45,934 nt of DNA from an uncultured Clostridia bacterium (lineage in GTDB: Bacteria; Bacillota; Clostridia; Oscillospirales; Acutalibacteraceae), in NCBI GenBank assembly GCA_947585615.1, contig CANPXD010000005.1, positions 1-45,934 on the forward strand, given 5' to 3'. Positions 36,122 to 45,820 of the stretch are shown here, piece after piece. The notes below the pieces were generated by a model. That model saw nothing but the letters and a program-made list of their open reading frames with translations, made no database searches and was not told the origin of the DNA. The first letter of the stretch is position 1. Every line of letters starts with the position of its first letter. The translations under genes were made by a program, and so were the position numbers.

Positions 36122-36197
36122 AGGGGTATAGCTCAGTTGGTAGAGCAGCGGTCTCCAAAACCGCGTGCCGAGGGTTCAAGTCCTTCTGCCCCTGCCA
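36122..36197 (+). tRNA. tRNA-Trp (CCA anticodon)
   Basis: Acceptor AGGGGTA/TGCCCCT, anticodon loop tCCAaa, encoded CCA. Confidence 0.95.
36153..36197 (+). repeat. attL core (3' part of tRNA-Trp)
   Basis: ctccaaaaccgcgtgccgagggttcaagtccttctgcccctgcca, identical to 45776-45820. Confidence 0.95.
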
Positions 36198-36264
36198 CCG
36201 AAAAGTCTTGAATTTCGCTTAATAATGCGGATTTTAAGACTTTTTATTTTTTTCGTTTTTGTTC

Positions 36265-36313
36265 CTGCAAACAATTACATATCAATTTGCAAACAATTTG
36301 CAAACAGCAAACG
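36265..36313 (+). repeat. Left-end GCAAACA array
   Basis: GCAAACA at 36267, 36289, 36300; GCAAACG at 36307. Confidence 0.8.
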
Positions 36314-36322
36314 AAAATCCGG

Positions 36323-37480
36323 CTATATTACAATCATTTTATTAAGACTATCTGCGATTTGAATTTTTGATGTTTTATCACTATGAGCATAAAACTTTAG
36401 TGTCGTTGATGAGCTACTGTGTCCTAACCATTCTGCTACTTGAACAACAGAAAAACCGTTGTTTAAAAGATTACTTGCAACGCTGTGTCTCAAATCGTGC
36501 AATCTTATGTGTGGTAGGGTACTTTTAATGATAATTTTATGAAACGTTCTTGATAAATAATTTGGCGCTATAACATTTCCGTCTTCCCAAGTACACACGA
36601 AATTATTATCTACATAATTATTACCAATTAGCTCTTTTCGCTTTCGTTGAAGCTCTTTGTGCTTTTTAAGCATTTGATAAACATCTTCTGTCAGTGGTAA
36701 TGTTCTGTAACTGCTTTCTGTTTTAGGAGTATCAATATAATTCGTATTTTCTCCTTTATGCTGTTGGAGTGTCTGACTTATAGTGATTGTTCTATTAACA
36801 AAATCTATACTATTCCAGCTAAGGCCTAATACTTCGCTTCTTCTGAAACCGTATATTGCGCAGAGTGTTACAGGTATTTCCACACTTGAACCTTTGAATA
36901 GCAGCAACAAATCTTGAAGCTGTTTCGGATTGAGAAACTCACTTTTATATGTTTCTGTTTTTGGAGTTTTCGCATAAGACGCAGGATTATAATGTATAAT
37001 ATCCTTTCGCACAGCGTCAGATAACGCTTTACTGATATTTTGATGATGATGTTTTATTGTTGTGTGTGATAATGCTTCATCACTTCTTAACTTGCTGTGT
37101 GGCTTTAATTTGAATTTGTAATAATCTTCAAGGTGATAAGGCTTTAGCTCTTGTATTAAAATATCTTTACTTTCAAAATAAGGTATGATGTGATTTTCCA
37201 TATTGCCTTTGTAAGAACGATATGTATTAGGTTTAACTTCTAATTCAATTTCCTTAATCCAATTTTTAAAATACTCTGCAACTGTTAAATCACAGTATTT
37301 TACATTTTTCTTATCCCATTCCAAAAGTAAATCATTTAAAATCTTTTCGGCTTTTTTCTTATTACCTCTAACGGCTAATTTGGTATTATACCATTTCTGC
37401 CGTCTTTCGCCATATTCATTATAATAACTAATTATAGCGTGATATGTTCCGTTTCTTTCAAACAAACTTCCAGTTGCCAT
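36323..37480 (-). CDS. int: Site-specific tyrosine integrase
   Basis: Catalytic motifs R (YGFRRSEVLGL), HDLRHSVAS, LGHSSSSTTLKFYAH; adjacent to attL. Confidence 0.96.
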   Translation of the reverse strand: MATGSLFERNGTYHAIISYYNEYGERRQKWYNTKLAVRGNKKKAEKILNDLLLEWDKKNVKYCDLTVAEYFKNWIKEIELEVKPNTYRSYKGNMENHIIPYFESKDILIQELKPYHLEDYYKFKLKPHSKLRSDEALSHTTIKHHHQNISKALSDAVRKDIIHYNPASYAKTPKTETYKSEFLNPKQLQDLLLLFKGSSVEIPVTLCAIYGFRRSEVLGLSWNSIDFVNRTITISQTLQQHKGENTNYIDTPKTESSYRTLPLTEDVYQMLKKHKELQRKRKELIGNNYVDNNFVCTWEDGNVIAPNYLSRTFHKIIIKSTLPHIRLHDLRHSVASNLLNNGFSVVQVAEWLGHSSSSTTLKFYAHSDKTSKIQIADSLNKMIVI

Positions 37481-37573
37481 TATTCGCTCCTTTCTTTGAA
37501 ACGGACAAATATATTCATTTGTATAATAGCATTAATATTTGCCCGCTTCAAGTATTTTAAATTTAATTTTAGA

Positions 37574-37756
37574 TTAGCTTATATCAAGAAAGTTAATAAC
37601 GCTTTTCTTTGGTATAATGTATCTGTTTCCGATTCTTAATGTCTTTATCCTATTTTCTTTTAAAAGTTTATATGCTGCTGACCTGCCAATCCTTAAAATT
37701 TTTTGCAAATCATCAACAGATAAAATATCAGGATAATTATTTAACAAATTTTGCAT
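37574..37756 (-). CDS. xis: Excisionase-like / HTH_17 DNA-binding protein
   Basis: 60 aa; LSVDDLQKILRIGRSAAYKLLKENRIKTLRIGNRYIIPKKSVINFL. Confidence 0.85.
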   Translation of the reverse strand: MQNLLNNYPDILSVDDLQKILRIGRSAAYKLLKENRIKTLRIGNRYIIPKKSVINFLDIS

Positions 37757-37799
37757 ATTTAATTCCTTTCAGAAATTATTTTTAAATTTAGGTATAATT

Positions 37800-38948
37800 T
37801 TAGTTAAACATCGAATTAAATAAATCGACGTTGTCAATCGTTGAGATATTAGGACGATTAGCGTCTGAAAAAATATTATCTTTGTCTTCATTAGGCACTG
37901 CGTTATATTTAAAGTTTTTACTGTCATATTCCATAACATGAATGTGGTCATAGTCCATTTTAATAACAAGTGATAATCTTCGTGATAGCTGTTTAAAACT
38001 ATCTGTTATCGACGTATAATTACCAAAATAGCAATTATAAAATGCGTCTGGACTATAAGGCGTTGTTATTATTATTAAATCGCAGGTTAATTCTTTATCG
38101 CTATATCTCGACGGAAGCATTTTATTGATTTCAAACGGGTCAAGTATTCTTAGTAAATCAGAAAATTCAATAATCCTCGGTCTAAGCTCGTCAATAATTA
38201 AGGTATGTTCGCCTAAATATTTTTGAAAATAATCCTTTGATGAACCTGTTAAATAATAGGGCTGGTTTCTTTTTTCGGCATAATATTTTGCAAAGGTCGT
38301 CTTACCTGTACCTGCTTCCCCGTATATCCAAATTACTGTTACTCGTTTGCCCTGTGCAATCATTTCTTTTTTAAAATCTTTAGATTGTTTTTTTAATAGC
38401 TTAGAATACACATTTTCTATTTGAGTTTTATATCTTCCATATTGAGCGCCTGTTATTTGTTTCTCAACTTCTTCTTTAGTAATCAACCCTGAATATAACA
38501 AATCAAGTAAGTTCTTTATTTTCATAGAATTTTTGCTTGAAACCTCTGACAAGATGTTTTCAAGAAGCTCAATATAATCAAAATTTGCGATTACCCGAGC
38601 GGGATCGTACTGATACTTTGTTGTTGCGGTATTTGTTCTATGTACCAGATAAGCATAGCCGTTATTGCTGTTTCCTTTCCACGCTTCAATATATTGCGGC
38701 TTATCGTTAAGAAGGCTTGCAACTTTATTAAGAGAGCGTGCATTTTGAAAACTCATCATAACGTGCACATGAGCTTCAATAAGATTACCTTTTTCGTCAG
38801 TGTCTTTGTCGTGTAGAATCAGGGCATACTTTTTAGGCTTAATTTTATTTTCAATTATATCAACAAGCTTGTCTATCGAACCGGCAGGAAGATGTTTTAA
38901 CTGCTGTTCATACATCATATTTTTGTAACTGTTATTTTTACTGCTCAA
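37800..38948 (-). CDS. rep: Rep/relaxase-like initiator: HUH endonuclease (Rep_2-like) fused to P-loop helicase domain
   Basis: ALILHDKD, EAHVHVMM (HUH), YLVHRTNTATTKYQY, Walker A GEAGTGKTT, Walker B LIIDE; start placed at TTG 38948 behind aaaggag; listed ORF extends to 39050 through non-coding repeats. Confidence 0.85.
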   Translation of the reverse strand: MSSKNNSYKNMMYEQQLKHLPAGSIDKLVDIIENKIKPKKYALILHDKDTDEKGNLIEAHVHVMMSFQNARSLNKVASLLNDKPQYIEAWKGNSNNGYAYLVHRTNTATTKYQYDPARVIANFDYIELLENILSEVSSKNSMKIKNLLDLLYSGLITKEEVEKQITGAQYGRYKTQIENVYSKLLKKQSKDFKKEMIAQGKRVTVIWIYGEAGTGKTTFAKYYAEKRNQPYYLTGSSKDYFQKYLGEHTLIIDELRPRIIEFSDLLRILDPFEINKMLPSRYSDKELTCDLIIITTPYSPDAFYNCYFGNYTSITDSFKQLSRRLSLVIKMDYDHIHVMEYDSKNFKYNAVPNEDKDNIFSDANRPNISTIDNVDLFNSMFN

Positions 38949-38998
38949 ATCGGTGTCGTCTCCTTTCTTATTAAATTTGGTTTTTTCATATTTTTTTA

Positions 38999-39120
38999 AC
39001 ACCGTAACACCATTACGGGTGTGTGTGCATAACAAGCCCTGCACACACAAAATATGTATTATTACTAATGTTTGACACCTAACACCGCTGTTGCTTTTGT
39101 TTCACAACGCACAGCGGTGT
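38999..39120. other. Candidate replication/transfer origin (three inverted repeats)
   Basis: acaccgtaa/ttacgggtgt (38999-39022), tgtgtgtgca/tgcacacaca (39020-39049), acaccgctgt/acagcggtgt (39082-39120). Confidence 0.5.
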
Positions 39121-39127
39121 CCGATTT

Positions 39128-40528
39128 TTAGCTGTGATACTTGTTAAGCAATCTGCCAAGCTCAGCGTATACCTTAAAAGTCATACGCGGAAAATGCACA
39201 AATGATACTCTGTCGTGTAATCCGTCTGTGCTGGAAAACCAAGCGTCGCCTGCATTATAAACTCTGCCGTTATTAAAATCTTTTAGCTTGTCACTATCCC
39301 AGATTAGTCGTCCTTCATCAAGTGTAGGCTTAAAAAGAATTTTTGTTGTCATTGCAGAACGTAACATTGCAGGTAGACCACCCTCAGATACACTGGCTTC
39401 TGCTATGCTGATTATTGCAAAGCACCCTGCACTTGCGCCCATTGTTACAATACGCTTTAGCAAGCTGTCAAATGTTGCAAGGCAGTAAGTTGGGCAGTTT
39501 TTACTCGGTTTTGATGGAAACATAGTTCTACAAGAAACATATTCATCTATAAATATAAATGAAGCGTGCATTCCTGCATCCCACCATTTCACCGCATCGC
39601 CGGTTTTTTCTGACAATGTATTTAGTGTTTGTTGACGCTTAACAATGATATCAGAAAACATTTGCATAGCTTTTAATATTCCTTTTGCTTCGCCGTCTTT
39701 GTCAAGAGTAACGACCGTTGGCAAACGGCTTAATTCCGCTTGCTTGGGGTCAATTATAATAATTTTACTGTCAAAATTATCTTTTTCATAGAGAAGGGAC
39801 TGAATTAACAGGCTTATTATTCCTGTTGTCTTGCCGCTTCTTGTTTTACCGGCGCATAGAATACTGCCTGATGTTCGTAAATCAATATATGTATTCTTTT
39901 GAACAGCAAGCGTTGCCGGATTAGTCTGCTTCATTTTTTTTACTTCATTAAAAGTCAAACTAAGGTCTTGAGTTACATCTTCAATGCGAAATTTAACATT
40001 ATTAAAACTTATATCGGTATCGGTTTGAGTTACCGCATAATTAGCAAATCTTTTTTTGTTTAAAGCTGATGAAATACTGCTTGTTATATTTTGCATATTC
40101 TCAACCGTACAAGAAACTACTTTTACTGTAAGCGTGAACACGCCAAGCTCGCTTACTTCACATTTTATCTTAGGTAAGCGTTCTCCGTCTTTTAGGTTTA
40201 GCGGATTGCCGTATTCGTAGCTGCATAACACCTTACGTACCATATATTTGATACGAGTTTTATCAGGCATTATAAAGTGGATTGTAATGGCTGTTACAAT
40301 AAGTATAGCACCTATAATAAGTGAAGCACGACTTATTGTTGTAAGTGCGCATACAAGCCATTCTATAACAACTTGAAACAAATCAATATTAAAAGATATT
40401 GTTTTTAATACAAGTCTTAATATTAACGTAAAAAGGGCAATTAAAAGGCTACACATACCTAATAACAAAAGTTTCGTATTAGGTAATAAAAAGGCAACAA
40501 TTGACCTTTTTTTATTAAAATAATTCAT
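39128..40528 (-). CDS. FtsK/SpoIIIE-type ATPase (TcpA-like coupling protein)
   Basis: Two-region N-terminal TM; Walker A GKTRSGKTTG; IIIIDPKQAE; FIFIDEYVS. Confidence 0.88.
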   Translation of the reverse strand: MNYFNKKRSIVAFLLPNTKLLLLGMCSLLIALFTLILRLVLKTISFNIDLFQVVIEWLVCALTTISRASLIIGAILIVTAITIHFIMPDKTRIKYMVRKVLCSYEYGNPLNLKDGERLPKIKCEVSELGVFTLTVKVVSCTVENMQNITSSISSALNKKRFANYAVTQTDTDISFNNVKFRIEDVTQDLSLTFNEVKKMKQTNPATLAVQKNTYIDLRTSGSILCAGKTRSGKTTGIISLLIQSLLYEKDNFDSKIIIIDPKQAELSRLPTVVTLDKDGEAKGILKAMQMFSDIIVKRQQTLNTLSEKTGDAVKWWDAGMHASFIFIDEYVSCRTMFPSKPSKNCPTYCLATFDSLLKRIVTMGASAGCFAIISIAEASVSEGGLPAMLRSAMTTKILFKPTLDEGRLIWDSDKLKDFNNGRVYNAGDAWFSSTDGLHDRVSFVHFPRMTFKVYAELGRLLNKYHS

Positions 40529-40537
40529 GATTTTTTG

Positions 40538-40891
40538 TTATGGATTCACAATCTGAATATCTTCACATTTTATGCTTAGACATTCGTTGTATTGCCCGTA
40601 AACTTTTGCCTTAACTTTCAAAGGCTTAATAAGAGAGTTCACCGGTATATTCATCCGTTTACCTACTTTAAAGGTAACGGATGAATACCGATTTGTGGTA
40701 TTCAAGATGTCACCATTATTATCAATATATTTTGTTTTATCATTGATAATAACAGCTTCAACTTTTGTACCGATAACCATTTTTGTATCATGATCTACCC
40801 ATTCTCTGCAGTCGGTGACAGAAAACTGTTTGTCAGCAGAAAATGATTCCCAATCAAAATGTAAAAATTGGGTTAATCTTTTTAATGCCAT
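40538..40891 (-). CDS. Conserved-looking element protein of unknown function
   Basis: 117 aa ORF in run with ftsK-like gene; 1-bp overlap with upstream ORF. Confidence 0.7.
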   Translation of the reverse strand: MALKRLTQFLHFDWESFSADKQFSVTDCREWVDHDTKMVIGTKVEAVIINDKTKYIDNNGDILNTTNRYSSVTFKVGKRMNIPVNSLIKPLKVKAKVYGQYNECLSIKCEDIQIVNP

Positions 40892-41112
40892 TATTTTTCA
40901 CCTCCTTTCTCGTCAAGAGGGATTGATAAATCTAATCCCTCATAAACGATACTTCTTATAATTGACATAATTACATTTATACCGTAATTATGTTCATATG
41001 GTTCTAAACAATCAATGTTTTCAACATCGATTGTAATTGAACCTTTCACATAAGAATCTATAAATGCTTTTATTTTTATTAAAGCATTTTTTTCCTTATC
41101 TATTGATGCCAT
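40891..41112 (-). CDS. Small element protein of unknown function
   Basis: 73 aa; directly upstream of 40538-40891. Confidence 0.6.
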   Translation of the reverse strand: MASIDKEKNALIKIKAFIDSYVKGSITIDVENIDCLEPYEHNYGINVIMSIIRSIVYEGLDLSIPLDEKGGEK

Positions 41113-41487
41113 GTATAAACATCCTTTCTATTAATTTTATGTTAATTAACGGGGTGAAACCGCCCTCAAAAATATAACTGTACCTAAGTAGGATGTAATT
41201 TCAGAAAATACTCTGATTTAAAGCAACAACTTATAAAATTCATTTTTTTCACCTCCTTCCGGGTTATCTTAATACAATCTTTTATGTATGTAGAAATTGC
41301 TTTTTTCCTGAACCTGTAGTGCCACTTAAAAAATATGGAATTTTGCTTTAACAAGTAGTTCAAGTTTATTTGCAATTCCCCTTGGCATAGAGCCAAGAGC
41401 CATACTCAATAAGTTTTTTAATTTGAATTTAACACCTCCAACTTAATAATAGAATTTTGTAATGTTTTAAAAACATAAAAAGAAAAA

Positions 41488-41578
41488 GGATTATAACATA
41501 TTTATGCATACAACCAATCTGCGCAAGCAATTGCTAAAGGCGCATTTCGGCCGTTTTAACATAAACGTGTTATAATCC
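41488..41578. repeat. Long inverted repeat in 5' leader of element operon
   Basis: ggattataacatatttatg (41488-41506) vs cataaacgtgttataatcc (41560-41578), 17/19 complementary. Confidence 0.85.
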
Positions 41579-41586
41579 ATAATCAA

Positions 41587-41615
41587 ATGATACTATTACA
41601 TAGGTGACTTGTCAA
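41587..41615 (-). promoter_or_regulatory. Sigma-A promoter for element rep/ftsK operon
   Basis: Minus strand TTGACA-17-TATCAT. Confidence 0.75.
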
Positions 41616-41859
41616 TAGGAAAAAGAAAATTTCTGTTAATATTAACAAAAAAATTACTTGAAGCGCAATAAAAATTGGCAATAATTAACAATGAATAAAT
41701 ATAACAAATATTATAATAAATTGTATAAATATACAATACTTATATATCTTTGTAATACTATACTAATCTATGAAAAAAAATCTTTGATTCTGAAAGCCGT
41801 TCTGTTCGAAATAGTCGACTTTTTCTGTTTGAGGATTGTCTGTAAGTCATTCCCGCATT

Positions 41860-42108
41860 TTAACGTTCTTCCAATTTGTATGATTTCAGTTCAATGAGCA
41901 TACCTGAACCATTATGATTCATTTCAACGGTTTTGTGAAATACATTTTCGGCGTCAATAAAGAATAAGCCTATATATGGGCTTTCACTGTCGCCGAGTTC
42001 GCCGGTTCTTTTAATCGTTGTGACAGATACTTTGTATATGAGATTTGTCACAATGTTGATTTCCGTATCGGCGTTATTTAGCTTTTTTGATAATTGTTCT
42101 GTAGACAT
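41860..42108 (-). CDS. Hypothetical protein
   Basis: 82 aa ORF within element; start codon at 42108. Confidence 0.5.
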   Translation of the reverse strand: MSTEQLSKKLNNADTEINIVTNLIYKVSVTTIKRTGELGDSESPYIGLFFIDAENVFHKTVEMNHNGSGMLIELKSYKLEER

Positions 42109-42172
42109 TTTTATACTCCGTGGTTTTTATTCCCCATTTTGATTTTTTTTTGTCGGTTTTTGATAAACTTTA

Positions 42173-42204
42173 TGGCTGGACACAGTTTTATCTATGTCCA
42201 GCCA
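42173..42204. terminator. Hairpin, probable terminator
   Basis: tggctggaca-N12-tgtccagcca; T-run weak. Confidence 0.45.
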
Positions 42205-42218
42205 CGGTTTAGCGGATA

Positions 42219-42953
42219 TTATTTCTTTACGGCTCCGCAACCCGTGCATTCGTAATGGTCAATGACCTTTTTCGTACCGACTTGTACTTTTTCGTAGCCG
42301 ATAAGTTCTTCTACGAGATGACCTGTACCATAATGGTCGTGGACTTTGAGATGGTCGCCGGATACAGCTACTTCACTTTGCCCTGTTTTACGACCGATTT
42401 CAGTGAAGTCTATTCCGCATACAGAACAGTAGTAATGTGTTACGCATTTGTATCGAGGCTGTTCCTCGTAGACGGGTTCCTCACGGTATACGGCTTTGTA
42501 AGTATGCTGATGTACCGTGGTTGCAGGTTTTGCTTTTTGTGTCGTTGGAGCCTTTGTAGTCGAAGTCGACTTTTTAGTCGCTGTAGGCTCTGTTGTGCGT
42601 TTCTGTGTTGTTGCAGAAACAGTGGATTTTTTAGTCGTCGTTTCAGCGGTATGTTTCGTTGTAACAGACGAAGCGGATTTGGTTGTAACGGGTTTCGCCG
42701 GTTCTACGCCTTTTTTGTCAGTCGGAGTTTCGGCATTTTTTTGTTCGGTAACAGTTTGTCCGTCGGAAACGGATGTTGTTTCTGTTTCTGCTGTGTCGCC
42801 TTTTGCGGTAGTGCCGTCGGTCTGTGTGATGTCCTGTGTGATTTCGGTATCATTTTGCGTTACCGTTGATTCCACGGGCGCACGAGCCGTACAAGCCGTG
42901 AGAAAGCAGACCGCGAGAACTACGAGCAGAATGCTTATGAGTTTCTTTTTCAT
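42219..42953 (-). CDS. Thr-rich putative lipoprotein with two C-terminal CxxC knuckles
   Basis: Lipobox LTAC; long T/K/A-rich linker; HQHTY...YYCSVCG...YECTGCGAVKK. Confidence 0.8.
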   Translation of the reverse strand: MKKKLISILLVVLAVCFLTACTARAPVESTVTQNDTEITQDITQTDGTTAKGDTAETETTSVSDGQTVTEQKNAETPTDKKGVEPAKPVTTKSASSVTTKHTAETTTKKSTVSATTQKRTTEPTATKKSTSTTKAPTTQKAKPATTVHQHTYKAVYREEPVYEEQPRYKCVTHYYCSVCGIDFTEIGRKTGQSEVAVSGDHLKVHDHYGTGHLVEELIGYEKVQVGTKKVIDHYECTGCGAVKK

Positions 42954-43079
42954 AGTAATGTACTCTCCTTATTATAAAATTTTTGAAAATATTATTTTCA
43001 CTTATAATCCCGGCACGGTTTACCGTGCTGTTTTCTCAGATGTGATATATTAAGAATTTCGGGAAAACAAGGCAACTCG

Positions 43080-43235
43080 TTACGAGTCGCCCTTATTATC
43101 TACCGTGCAAGTTATACTTGTTTGATTATGTGTTTCGGTACTGTCGTCGGCAAAAATGTGATAGGCGAGGATTCCTGTTCCTATCGTGAAACCTATGATA
43201 ATAGCTGTGACGCTTAATAACATTGTTAAAAGCAT
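43080..43235 (-). CDS. Small membrane protein
   Basis: 51 aa: MLLTMLLSVTAIIIGFTIGTGILAYHIFADDSTETHNQTSITCTVDNKGDS; one TM; weak RBS; not in supplied track. Confidence 0.4.
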   Translation of the reverse strand: MLLTMLLSVTAIIIGFTIGTGILAYHIFADDSTETHNQTSITCTVDNKGDS

Positions 43236-43252
43236 CACATTGATATGTTTTT

Positions 43253-44317
43253 TTAGCCTTTTATATAAGAATTGATGTCAAAAATCACTTTTTTATTTTT
43301 TTCTAAAACATCATCAACATTATCAACTGAAACATTTTTAGTGCCAATGGGATCAATGGTAAATTGTTCAAGATTTTTTCCTCTTGTGAGAAGATAATAT
43401 AAATTATATGTATTACCGTTTTCAATATCAACTCTATATCCAAAATAATATGAATCATATATTTGAAACCCTGTTGTTCCAAACTCAATTAAAGGTCCAA
43501 ACAATTCGATCTTGTTTAATTTAAGACTATATGTATCCTGTATATATGCAAAAGAATTATCAATAACTGGTGCATATTGCTCTACTAATGATTCAGAAAT
43601 AGCATTGTTACCTGTAGAATCAGTATTAATAACAATATTATACTGCAATGTTGGATTCGATGTATAATCTTCAATCGCTTTTATAGCCATTTTTCCTGCT
43701 TCAGAAGATTTAAAACATTCAATAAGGCCATTGTAAATATTATTGGCGGCTTTTTTATAATCGCCTGTTGTAAAACATTCAATATAATTATTCTTAACTA
43801 CATCTCTTAACTTATTTCCAAGTTCACCGTTCCAATCTGATAATTCAGGAACAAAATCATAGAAATTTTCATCAGATATATCAGAATATCTATGCCCGTA
43901 AATATCTATGCTGTTTTCATACTCGATTTTTAACTTTTCTTCCCATTCTTTCTCAGAATATATTGTAACATTTTCTATCAATTCGTTATAAGCCTTTTCA
44001 TTAGATTCTTTAACAAGTTCTTTAAAACTATTCTCTGCCATTTCCTCTATTTCAGAATCTTCCATATTTTCTAATTCACCTAAAGTCATTTCAGGATAGT
44101 ATATCATATTTGTACCATCTTCTTTGAAGATGAGAACAGATTCAACTTTAGCTTCTTTTGCAGGAATGGCGCTATCCTCGCTATTTACTAAAAGAAAAAT
44201 TCTGTGTTTATCTTCTAAATATCCGCTAAGCGTTGTATATTTAGATGATTTGCCACAGCCGACAAGCATTACTGCTATGAGAGCCACGCTTAAAATGACT
44301 GATAATGATTTTTTCAT
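43253..44317 (-). CDS. Putative lipoprotein of unknown function
   Basis: Start at MKKSLSVILSVALIAVMLVGCGKSS; lipobox LVGC. Confidence 0.8.
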   Translation of the reverse strand: MKKSLSVILSVALIAVMLVGCGKSSKYTTLSGYLEDKHRIFLLVNSEDSAIPAKEAKVESVLIFKEDGTNMIYYPEMTLGELENMEDSEIEEMAENSFKELVKESNEKAYNELIENVTIYSEKEWEEKLKIEYENSIDIYGHRYSDISDENFYDFVPELSDWNGELGNKLRDVVKNNYIECFTTGDYKKAANNIYNGLIECFKSSEAGKMAIKAIEDYTSNPTLQYNIVINTDSTGNNAISESLVEQYAPVIDNSFAYIQDTYSLKLNKIELFGPLIEFGTTGFQIYDSYYFGYRVDIENGNTYNLYYLLTRGKNLEQFTIDPIGTKNVSVDNVDDVLEKNKKVIFDINSYIKG

Positions 44318-44391
44318 AGTTTTTAATATCCTCCTAAAAATATAAATTTGCAGCCAAAACCACACATTAAACATTGCACCGGCAATAATAA

Positions 44392-44446
44392 ATACTCAGT
44401 ATATTGAGCATATTCAAATTATACTCAATATCTTTAGCATAGTCAA
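44392..44446. promoter_or_regulatory. Divergent promoter/operator region with 21-bp direct repeats
   Basis: atactcagtatattgagcata (44392-44412) and atactcaatatctttagcata (44421-44441); minus-strand promoter TTGACT-17-TATAAT (44446-44418). Confidence 0.65.
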
Positions 44447-44497
44447 GAGATTAGTTATGTTATTTTATTCATATATTATATTAAGAGATGATAGCAT

Positions 44498-44707
44498 ATG
44501 ATTTCTTACGCTCCGTTTTATAAAACCTTAAATAAAAAAGGCATAACTGAATACGCCCTGATTTTTAAGCACGGAATTCCCGCAAATACGCTCCATAGAA
44601 TGAAGCACGGCGAAGCAATTACCACAAAAACGCTTAATGAATTATGCTTCATTCTTGATTGCAGAGTTGAAGATATTTTAATTTATATAAAGAATGATAA
44701 AGAATAA
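44498..44707 (+). CDS. XRE/Cro-CI-like HTH regulator
   Basis: 69 aa; YALIFKHGIPANTLHRMKHGEAITTKTLNELCFILDCRVEDILIYI. Confidence 0.88.
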   Translation: MISYAPFYKTLNKKGITEYALIFKHGIPANTLHRMKHGEAITTKTLNELCFILDCRVEDILIYIKNDKE

Positions 44708-44708
44708 A

Positions 44709-44738
44709 ATCCTGCTTGTTAAAGGCAGGATTTTTTAT
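44709..44738 (+). terminator. Rho-independent terminator
   Basis: atcctgc-ttgttaaag-gcaggatttttt. Confidence 0.8.
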
Positions 44739-44881
44739 TTAATATTGATTTTTAAAACAATAACTGTTATTATATCAACAGAGCTTTTGCTCTCTTGGAG
44801 TTATCACTGATAACGGTAGGCGGTTAGTCCTCTTAATAAAAAGAGGGCAATGCCCTCTAATTGATTTTAGGGGGTGATGCT

Positions 44882-44962
44882 ATGGAATATTTAGCTTTTA
44901 TAGTAATTATTCTTATCGTAGCCACGGGCTACATAATAAGCATAAAAAACGACCGCCCATAA
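44882..44962 (+). CDS. Candidate type I toxin peptide (26 aa)
   Basis: MEYLAFIVIILIVATGYIISIKNDRP; strong RBS ttagggggtgatgct; promoter TTGATT-17-TATTAT at 44745-44773. Confidence 0.65.
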   Translation: MEYLAFIVIILIVATGYIISIKNDRP

Positions 44963-45026
44963 GCTCCACACTTAGGCAGTCGTTTGTCTAACTTGGGCTA
45001 ACCGTCTATCGGATAACTCCTTGTTC
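44943..45026 (-). ncRNA. Candidate antisense antitoxin RNA
   Basis: Minus strand promoter TTGACA-17-TATAAT (45061-45033); terminator aacgactgcctaag-N-cttatgggcggtcgttttttat. Confidence 0.65.
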
Positions 45027-45309
45027 ATTTTTATTATAATAAGCTGATTTCAATTTGTCAACAGTCAAGTTTTATTCCGCTTGATTTATATGGGATATTT
45101 TTTAATCGGTTTTATATCAACTCTCACTTATGCTTTTCATTATACCAACAGCAATAATTTGTCAAATCTCGACTGAGATTACGACAAAGAAAAAACTTTT
45201 TTCTTCATTATATGTTAAAAAGCTTTTTTCTTTGCTTGACAAATTATCTTATGTTGGTGACTTCTCCTTGCACTCGTAAGAGTAGTAATTATTTAAAGGA
45301 GTTGTCAAA

Positions 45310-45528
45310 ATGAAACTGACATACGAAATTAACAAAATTGATGAGTTCAAGGCTTGGAGCGGGGCAGTGGAAACCGTCAAAGCGATTATTGAAAATGATA
45401 AGCAAGATGAATTTATGTTCATTCTTGAAGACATTTTCCCTAATGGTTGTACTGAAACAGAGCTTAACGATTTCCTTTGGTTTGATGATGATTTCATCTT
45501 TTCCTCACTTGATATAAAACAAGATTAA
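45310..45528 (+). CDS. Small acidic hypothetical protein
   Basis: 72 aa; RBS aaaggagttgtcaaaatg. Confidence 0.65.
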   Translation: MKLTYEINKIDEFKAWSGAVETVKAIIENDKQDEFMFILEDIFPNGCTETELNDFLWFDDDFIFSSLDIKQD

Positions 45529-45542
45529 GCACATAAAAAATA

Positions 45543-45577
45543 TCCCTGCTTTGTTAAATCAAGGCAGGGATAAAATT
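45543..45577 (+). terminator. Rho-independent terminator
   Basis: tccctgct-N-aggcaggga-taaaatttt. Confidence 0.65.
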
Positions 45578-45597
45578 TTGAATATATTGTCCGTTTA

Positions 45598-45651
45598 CTG
45601 CAAACAAAATTAAGATTTTTTGCAAACAAATTGCAAACATTTTTGCAAAAA
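45598..45651 (+). repeat. Right-end GCAAACA array
   Basis: GCAAACA at 45600, 45622, 45633; degenerate GCAAAAA at 45645. Confidence 0.8.
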
Positions 45652-45775
45652 AAATGTTAAGCTATTGTTATATCGTTGTGATTTTATACAATGTAATTTT
45701 AAAAAAATTGTGCAAGTTAAACTAAAAATCACTAAAAAACACCAGAAAACATTACTTGTAAAGCTATTTGAAACG

Positions 45776-45820
45776 CTCCAAAACCGCGTGCCGAGGGTTC
45801 AAGTCCTTCTGCCCCTGCCA
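45776..45820 (+). repeat. attR core
   Basis: Identical 45 bp to 36153-36197. Confidence 0.95.

Follow-up and report, generated by a model that had tools for sequence, protein, structure and literature searches.

Does a short hydrophobic ORF on a contig of a gut-type Clostridia bacterium, faced by a promoter on the opposite strand, belong to a type I toxin-antitoxin locus, and to which known systems is it related? An earlier note on this DNA had proposed such a locus, and we followed this up in the window, that is, the whole 45,934-nt stretch (contig C5 of a 2-Mb genome in 125 contigs), and in its relatives. The type I reading is backed by a conserved ORF, an antisense promoter, an antisense terminator and their joint conservation, and we consider it very probable that this is a type I toxin-antitoxin locus on an integrated element, with an mRNA closed end to end and an antisense RNA. 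Comparison of sequences establishes the anatomical parts, the selection on the ORF, the covariation of the terminator and the matching of two complementary boxes within loci, and makes a convincing case for an uncatalogued, widespread variant of the type I toxin-antitoxin locus. The parts in the window are as follows.

36153-45820, no strand: host mobile element of 9.6 kb, integrated in tRNA-Trp, recognized by its repeat and gene content
44498-44707: Cro/C1-type HTH gene (PF13443) with its own terminator, directly upstream of the locus
44745-44773, + strand: promoter P1, TTGATT-17-TATTAT with a TG extended -10, read from sequence; equivalents lie upstream in most type A relatives
44780-44793, + strand: 5'-terminal hairpin AGAGC-TTTT-GCTCT, right at the predicted mRNA start
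44797-44830, + strand: 5' box, with P (44797-44805, GGAGTTATC) and Q (44814-44830, CGGTAGGCGGTTAGTCC), complementary to the 3' box
44829-44875, + strand: C-rich anti-Shine-Dalgarno (anti-SD) segments and SD-sequestering hairpin (CCTCTT..AAGAGGGC; GCCCTCTAA..TTAGGGGGT)
44869-44879, + strand: extended Shine-Dalgarno (SD) sequence AGGGGGTGATG
44882-44962, + strand: toxin-candidate ORF, 26 aa with a single membrane helix by translation, MEYLAFIVIILIVATGYIISIKNDRP
44944-44984, - strand: antisense terminator, with its stem at 44984-44948 and its U-run at 44949-44944; it reaches into the ORF 3' end and is supported by covariation
44995-45020, + strand: 3' box GGGCTAACCGTCTATCGGATAACTCC, which supplies the 3' strand of the helix joining the two mRNA ends; the antisense RNA begins with its complement
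45061-45033, - strand: antisense promoter P2, TTGACA-17-TATAAT, 12/12 consensus
~45026 to 44944, - strand: predicted antisense RNA (candidate antitoxin) of ~84 nt, from promoter and terminator, conserved at the matches of the antisense model described below

The element is bounded by a 45-bp direct repeat of the tRNA-Trp 3' end (36153-36197 and 45776-45820) and carries genes for a tyrosine integrase, Rep and an FtsK-like protein. The toxin-antitoxin locus lies near its right end, between the Cro/C1-type HTH gene, which may regulate the element, and a small ORF. A 72-aa acidic ORF near the element end (45310-45528) has no Pfam family. This setting suggests that the locus may serve to stabilize the element.

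On the + strand, the 26-codon ORF had been described as having a strong ribosome-binding site and its own promoter, and re-reading of the sequence agrees in both respects (SD and P1). The Kyte-Doolittle mean of the peptide peaks at 2.6 (19-residue window). The charged tail ascribed to the peptide (NDRP) is present in the window but is peculiar to this locus: it results from a shift of A7 to A6, and relatives, which carry one A more, stop at ...SIKK. Hairpins of other sequence, with compensated stems (GGAGC/GCTCC, GGACA/TGTCC, GGAGGT/ACCTCC and GCTTG/CAAGC), occupy the position of the 5'-terminal hairpin in about half of the type A relatives. Inspection of the listed 5' UTRs of relatives shows that they repeat the C-rich anti-SD/SD pattern. 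In folding of the window sequence, the SD is predicted to be paired in the full-length, 3'-truncated and 5'-only forms of the mRNA; because it is masked in the truncated as well as the full-length folds, folding alone does not explain how translation switches on. The + strand of the window has no strong terminator at the central hairpin or at the 3' box, and the latter abuts the antisense promoter; the placement of the mRNA 3' end at this locus is one that we infer.

The minus strand holds what the earlier note had seen there: a TTGACA-17-TATAAT promoter, which is perfect in the window and kept across type A relatives; a hairpin with a U-run ending within the toxin 3' end, the stem of which covaries; and an antisense RNA overlapping the ORF end, put at ~85 nt and predicted by us from promoter and terminator to be ~84 nt. 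P2 is the sole 12/12 promoter match within a 1.9-kb region, and among 32 type A loci it matches the consensus at 12/12 positions in 22, 11/12 in six and 10/12 in three. In an alignment of 47 loci, the terminator stem shows double changes at 9 of 11 pairs, with 42 double-changed cells compared with 9.4 in shuffles (0 of 500 shuffles as high), and the pairing is lost when the alignment is slid. The structure of alignment A1 was given by hand because RNAalifold missed the terminator. The window's own stem carries compensating changes (UA to CG and AU to GC). In the stem core, C.A on the + strand, which is G.U in the minus-strand RNA, outnumbers G.U on the + strand by 24:2, which fits selection on a hairpin within the antisense RNA, although the relatives are not independent. 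The U-run at the hairpin is strong only for the antisense strand in the window and for both strands in many relatives. Type C loci had at first sight no antisense promoter, but this absence was only apparent: the promoter sits ~28 nt further out (L063, L044, L138 and L142), and the antisense RNA there gains a 5' hairpin.

How far does this unit extend? The covariance search for the antisense structure in other genomes, which the earlier note had proposed as a check, was run with R2, a covariance model of the antisense half, and returned matches in 61 of 201 genomes of the family, or about 30% of those sampled, with 1 to about 15-18 copies per genome, some of them in tandem. Two tandem arrays (L240, G481:C18; L241, G407:C21) hold three to four complete toxin-antisense units; L240 has four copies with a common 5' UTR, the third carrying a different peptide. 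Across the phylum, R2 matched in 16 of 300 genomes, and blastn with a 206-base query against 298 genomes of the order hit 34 of them; the stronger matches are true relatives with the same anatomy and some weak ones are chance. The exact 18-mer GGGCTAACCGTCTATCGG from the 3' box was counted at 17 loci in viral contigs and at no fewer than 120 in GTDB genomes; the latter are chiefly those of Lachnospiraceae, Oscillospiraceae and other Clostridia, and also of Anaerovibrio and Phascolarctobacterium. Taken together, these matches put the number of loci with the unit at well over 100, most of them in Clostridia. A 5' UTR pattern search was too strict, matching 1 of 397 genomes, and blastn against phages gave short chance-like matches only, with none when the relative L003 was the query. 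An Rfam scan yielded sub-threshold matches only; the best, to the OrzO-P antitoxin (33.2 bits against a gathering threshold of 60), lies at 44704-44779, outside the antisense gene, and was judged to be chance. We found no description of this arrangement in the open PMC literature, which does not establish its absence from the literature at large.

The peptides carried by the unit fall into several types: type A (MEY..ATGYI.SIKK), type B (VTYSDLF..), type C (LIAVLSFGLTCFGIGYSIG..KTQK) and others. Among type A ORFs, 96 pairs gave pS 0.55 and pN 0.19 (pN/pS about 0.34), with differences at the three codon positions of 318:162:618, so that changes are mostly synonymous; the window and L059 differ with pS 0.56 and pN 0.06. 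On this comparison, the toxin-candidate ORFs are under purifying selection. The window peptide had no significant match in Pfam, NCBIfam, PHROGs or PADLOC, its type did not match PF16935 (Hol_Tox), and type A and type C peptides matched no family in Pfam, NCBIfam or PHROGs. Type B-like peptides reach Hol_Tox, L174 with an E-value of 5e-6 (above the cut-off) and L051 with 6.6e-5 (just below). We consider it an evenly balanced possibility that a single RNA chassis, in which a closed mRNA and an antisense RNA overlapping the terminator begin with an identical 5' end, serves as an exchangeable platform for toxic peptides of several unrelated kinds and has both spread through Clostridia and multiplied there in tandem; it would then be among the most numerous type I families, unregistered as an RNA family.

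The toxin and antisense halves are lost unequally. In 16 genomes, 39 of the 41 confident toxin starts (R3 matches with E below 1e-4) have an antisense half. The remaining two are altered: what L246 encodes after its start is not hydrophobic, and in L247, near a contig end, the end of the ORF is changed. No intact toxin-only locus was found in these 16 genomes, whereas eight loci keep the antisense promoter and terminator and miss the toxin start (L184, L185, L210, L221, the first copy of L222, L230, the first copy of L237, and L248). These counts are small and partly read by eye, but antisense-only loci without intact toxin-only loci are what would be expected if the peptide alone is harmful. 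Solitary antisense genes sometimes keep a toxin fragment.

This pattern bears on the alternative that survives best, in which the peptide does no harm and is a small membrane protein tuned by antisense RNA, either regulating a membrane complex or being a holin-like peptide of a phage or element. Such a role would suit the several relatives in viral contigs and the one relative whose peptide matches a PHROG annotated as holin. It would not lead one to expect the unequal loss, nor the layered silencing by anti-SD, end-to-end helix and antisense RNA, which is typical of toxins; furthermore, some relatives on the chassis are Hol_Tox, and hydrophobicity is retained while the peptide sequence is free to vary across relatives. 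We therefore regard a harmless protein as unlikely, and a toxin as the better reading of the peptide.

The antisense RNA and the mRNA start with the same ~30 nt, and the mRNA 5' end is thereby complementary to the + strand 3' box. The earlier note had located the interaction at the ORF end and 3' UTR; this overlap stands, but the mRNA 5' end, overlooked there, belongs to the surface as well. In the window, the 5' and 3' boxes form a helix of 26 bp (9 + 17) with a duplex energy of -41.5 kcal/mol, and folding gives about 22 expected pairs of the end-to-end helix in the ensemble. For an unbiased test of the boxes, we used loci found by R2, which rests on the antisense half alone, without using the 5' box. 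The mean 5'-3' duplex energy was -44.3 kcal/mol for a locus's own boxes, -31.1 for boxes swapped between loci and -24.4 for shuffled ones; own duplexes were favored over swapped ones (Wilcoxon p 7e-14), and all 25 swaps were beaten at 53 of 90 loci. In the set of loci with the 18-mer, which leaves the 11-nt P core largely unconstrained, the core scored 9.01 for own and 7.47 (sd 0.074) for swapped partners. Where the two box copies differ, the mRNA has U and the antisense RNA C in 61 cases and the reverse in 4 (expectation from swapped copies 3:1, p 2e-4), and all transitions between the copies are divided 120:42 (p 5e-4), a bias that favors G.U pairing within the helix of the mRNA. A comparison of folding energies between strands went in one direction at 113 of 116 loci, but we do not count it as support, since shuffled and swapped controls attributed it partly to composition and family-wide fixed sites; we relied instead on the counts for the P core and on the comparison of own with swapped boxes. 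As the ends are matched within each locus, the full-length mRNA should close end to end. The long-range 5'-3' helix is under selection, and in this predicted closure the message resembles hok and AapA.

Could the flanking inverted repeats instead act as DNA elements, either bounding a small transposable unit as its terminal repeats or serving as operators through which a regulator controls both promoters? There is indeed a repeat at each of the predicted transcription starts, and the unit is found in tandem copies and on mobile elements. However, the differences between box copies give G.U pairs in the mRNA (U/C, 61:4), which a DNA site does not need, and the repeats differ between loci yet match within them. 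This makes DNA elements a very unlikely explanation compared with pairing between the two ends of an RNA.

With the repeats taken as RNA partners, the locus can be compared with known systems. Hol_Tox (PF16935) loci include TxpA/RatA, SprG/SprF and the plasmid 'putative holin-like toxin' genes of lactobacilli. Judged by the common RNA chassis, the nearest relatives are Hol_Tox/TxpA-SprG-like loci, with which the window has in common a short single-helix peptide with a lysine-rich end, a convergent antisense RNA, here predicted, that is complementary to the mRNA 3' part, and a location on mobile elements. The lactobacilli plasmid loci additionally have a similar terminator region and a 5'-to-3' complement (L032-L036). 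In contrast, the window peptide type is in no Pfam or NCBIfam family, and its 22-26 aa compare with 59 aa in TxpA. Of the analogues named earlier, TxpA remains, whereas the Fst and Ldr type does not fit, since the locus lacks PxxxG and its repeats are inverted. The locus also has the general marks of type I systems, namely, a short hydrophobic one-helix peptide and a predicted antisense gene overlapping the toxin mRNA.

In full-length hok and AapA toxin mRNAs, long-range 5'-3' pairing occurs together with local SD-masking hairpins (PMC6733600, PMC8167048). The locus resembles hok/Sok and AapA1/IsoA1 in the predicted 5'-3' closure of the full-length toxin mRNA and in its SD-masking hairpins, whereas peptides and hosts are unrelated; unlike in these systems, the antisense gene begins within the 3' box, which gives its RNA the same start as the mRNA. 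C. difficile toxins of the CD2517.1-RCd8 type, of 50-53 aa, are reported to share no homology with known type I toxins; by description only, these modules are alike in their convergent antisense RNA, hydrophobic lysine-ended peptide and prophage or mobile location (PMC6563280, PMC7699646).

An Fst/par-type locus is scarcely credible here; in that type, the antisense RNA pairs with direct repeats where translation starts, and a bidirectional terminator serves both RNAs. The Fst/par locus of pAD1 is similar in its convergent toxin mRNA and short antisense RNA, the overlap at the terminator and a short membrane peptide with a charged tail, and the type A 5'-terminal hairpins resemble the helix at the 5' end of par RNA I (PMC7472228). 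Nevertheless, the P/D/S/TxxxG motif was not found in the window helix (in VATGYI, the residue four before G is I), and no direct repeats were found at the toxin start: the flanking repeats are inverted, so both RNAs carry the same sequence there rather than complementary ones, and the asymmetry of C.A and G.U favors the hairpin as a structure of the antisense strand. A chance origin, a random short ORF beside promoter-like sequence, is refuted by conservation at well over 100 loci, covariation and purifying selection.

In the type I reading that we prefer, P1 would give an mRNA for the 26-aa membrane peptide, and the C-rich anti-SD just upstream would mask the SD. Once transcription arrives at the 3' box, which the full-length mRNA probably reaches, the 5' box would pair with it over 26 bp and the message would be closed end to end. 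P2 would give the ~84-nt antisense RNA, whose complementarity to the 3' part of the mRNA is complete and takes in the ORF end, the terminator stem and the 3' box. We expect that both RNAs are made and that the antisense RNA, as the labile antitoxin to a membrane-toxic peptide, should mark the mRNA for decay or block it. Trimming of the 3' end, a step borrowed from hok and AapA, would activate the mRNA.

To our knowledge, type I systems of the dominant gut Clostridia have hardly been described outside C. difficile, and here a widespread unit has no matching Rfam family and its main peptide type no Pfam or NCBIfam family. The boxes allow direct mutational tests of how the work is divided among closure, masking and antisense decay, and tandem arrays, with different peptides on one chassis, are a natural experiment on specificity between neighboring copies. 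The genome of the window itself holds a second family member on the minus strand of another contig (L244, G000:C119:400-1500), a weak R2 match (E 0.017) in which we recognized by eye its own peptide (MKHIALKIAVALLIVAIVFIAFAPIAQ), its own differing, matched boxes, and a TTGACA-17-TATAAT antisense promoter.
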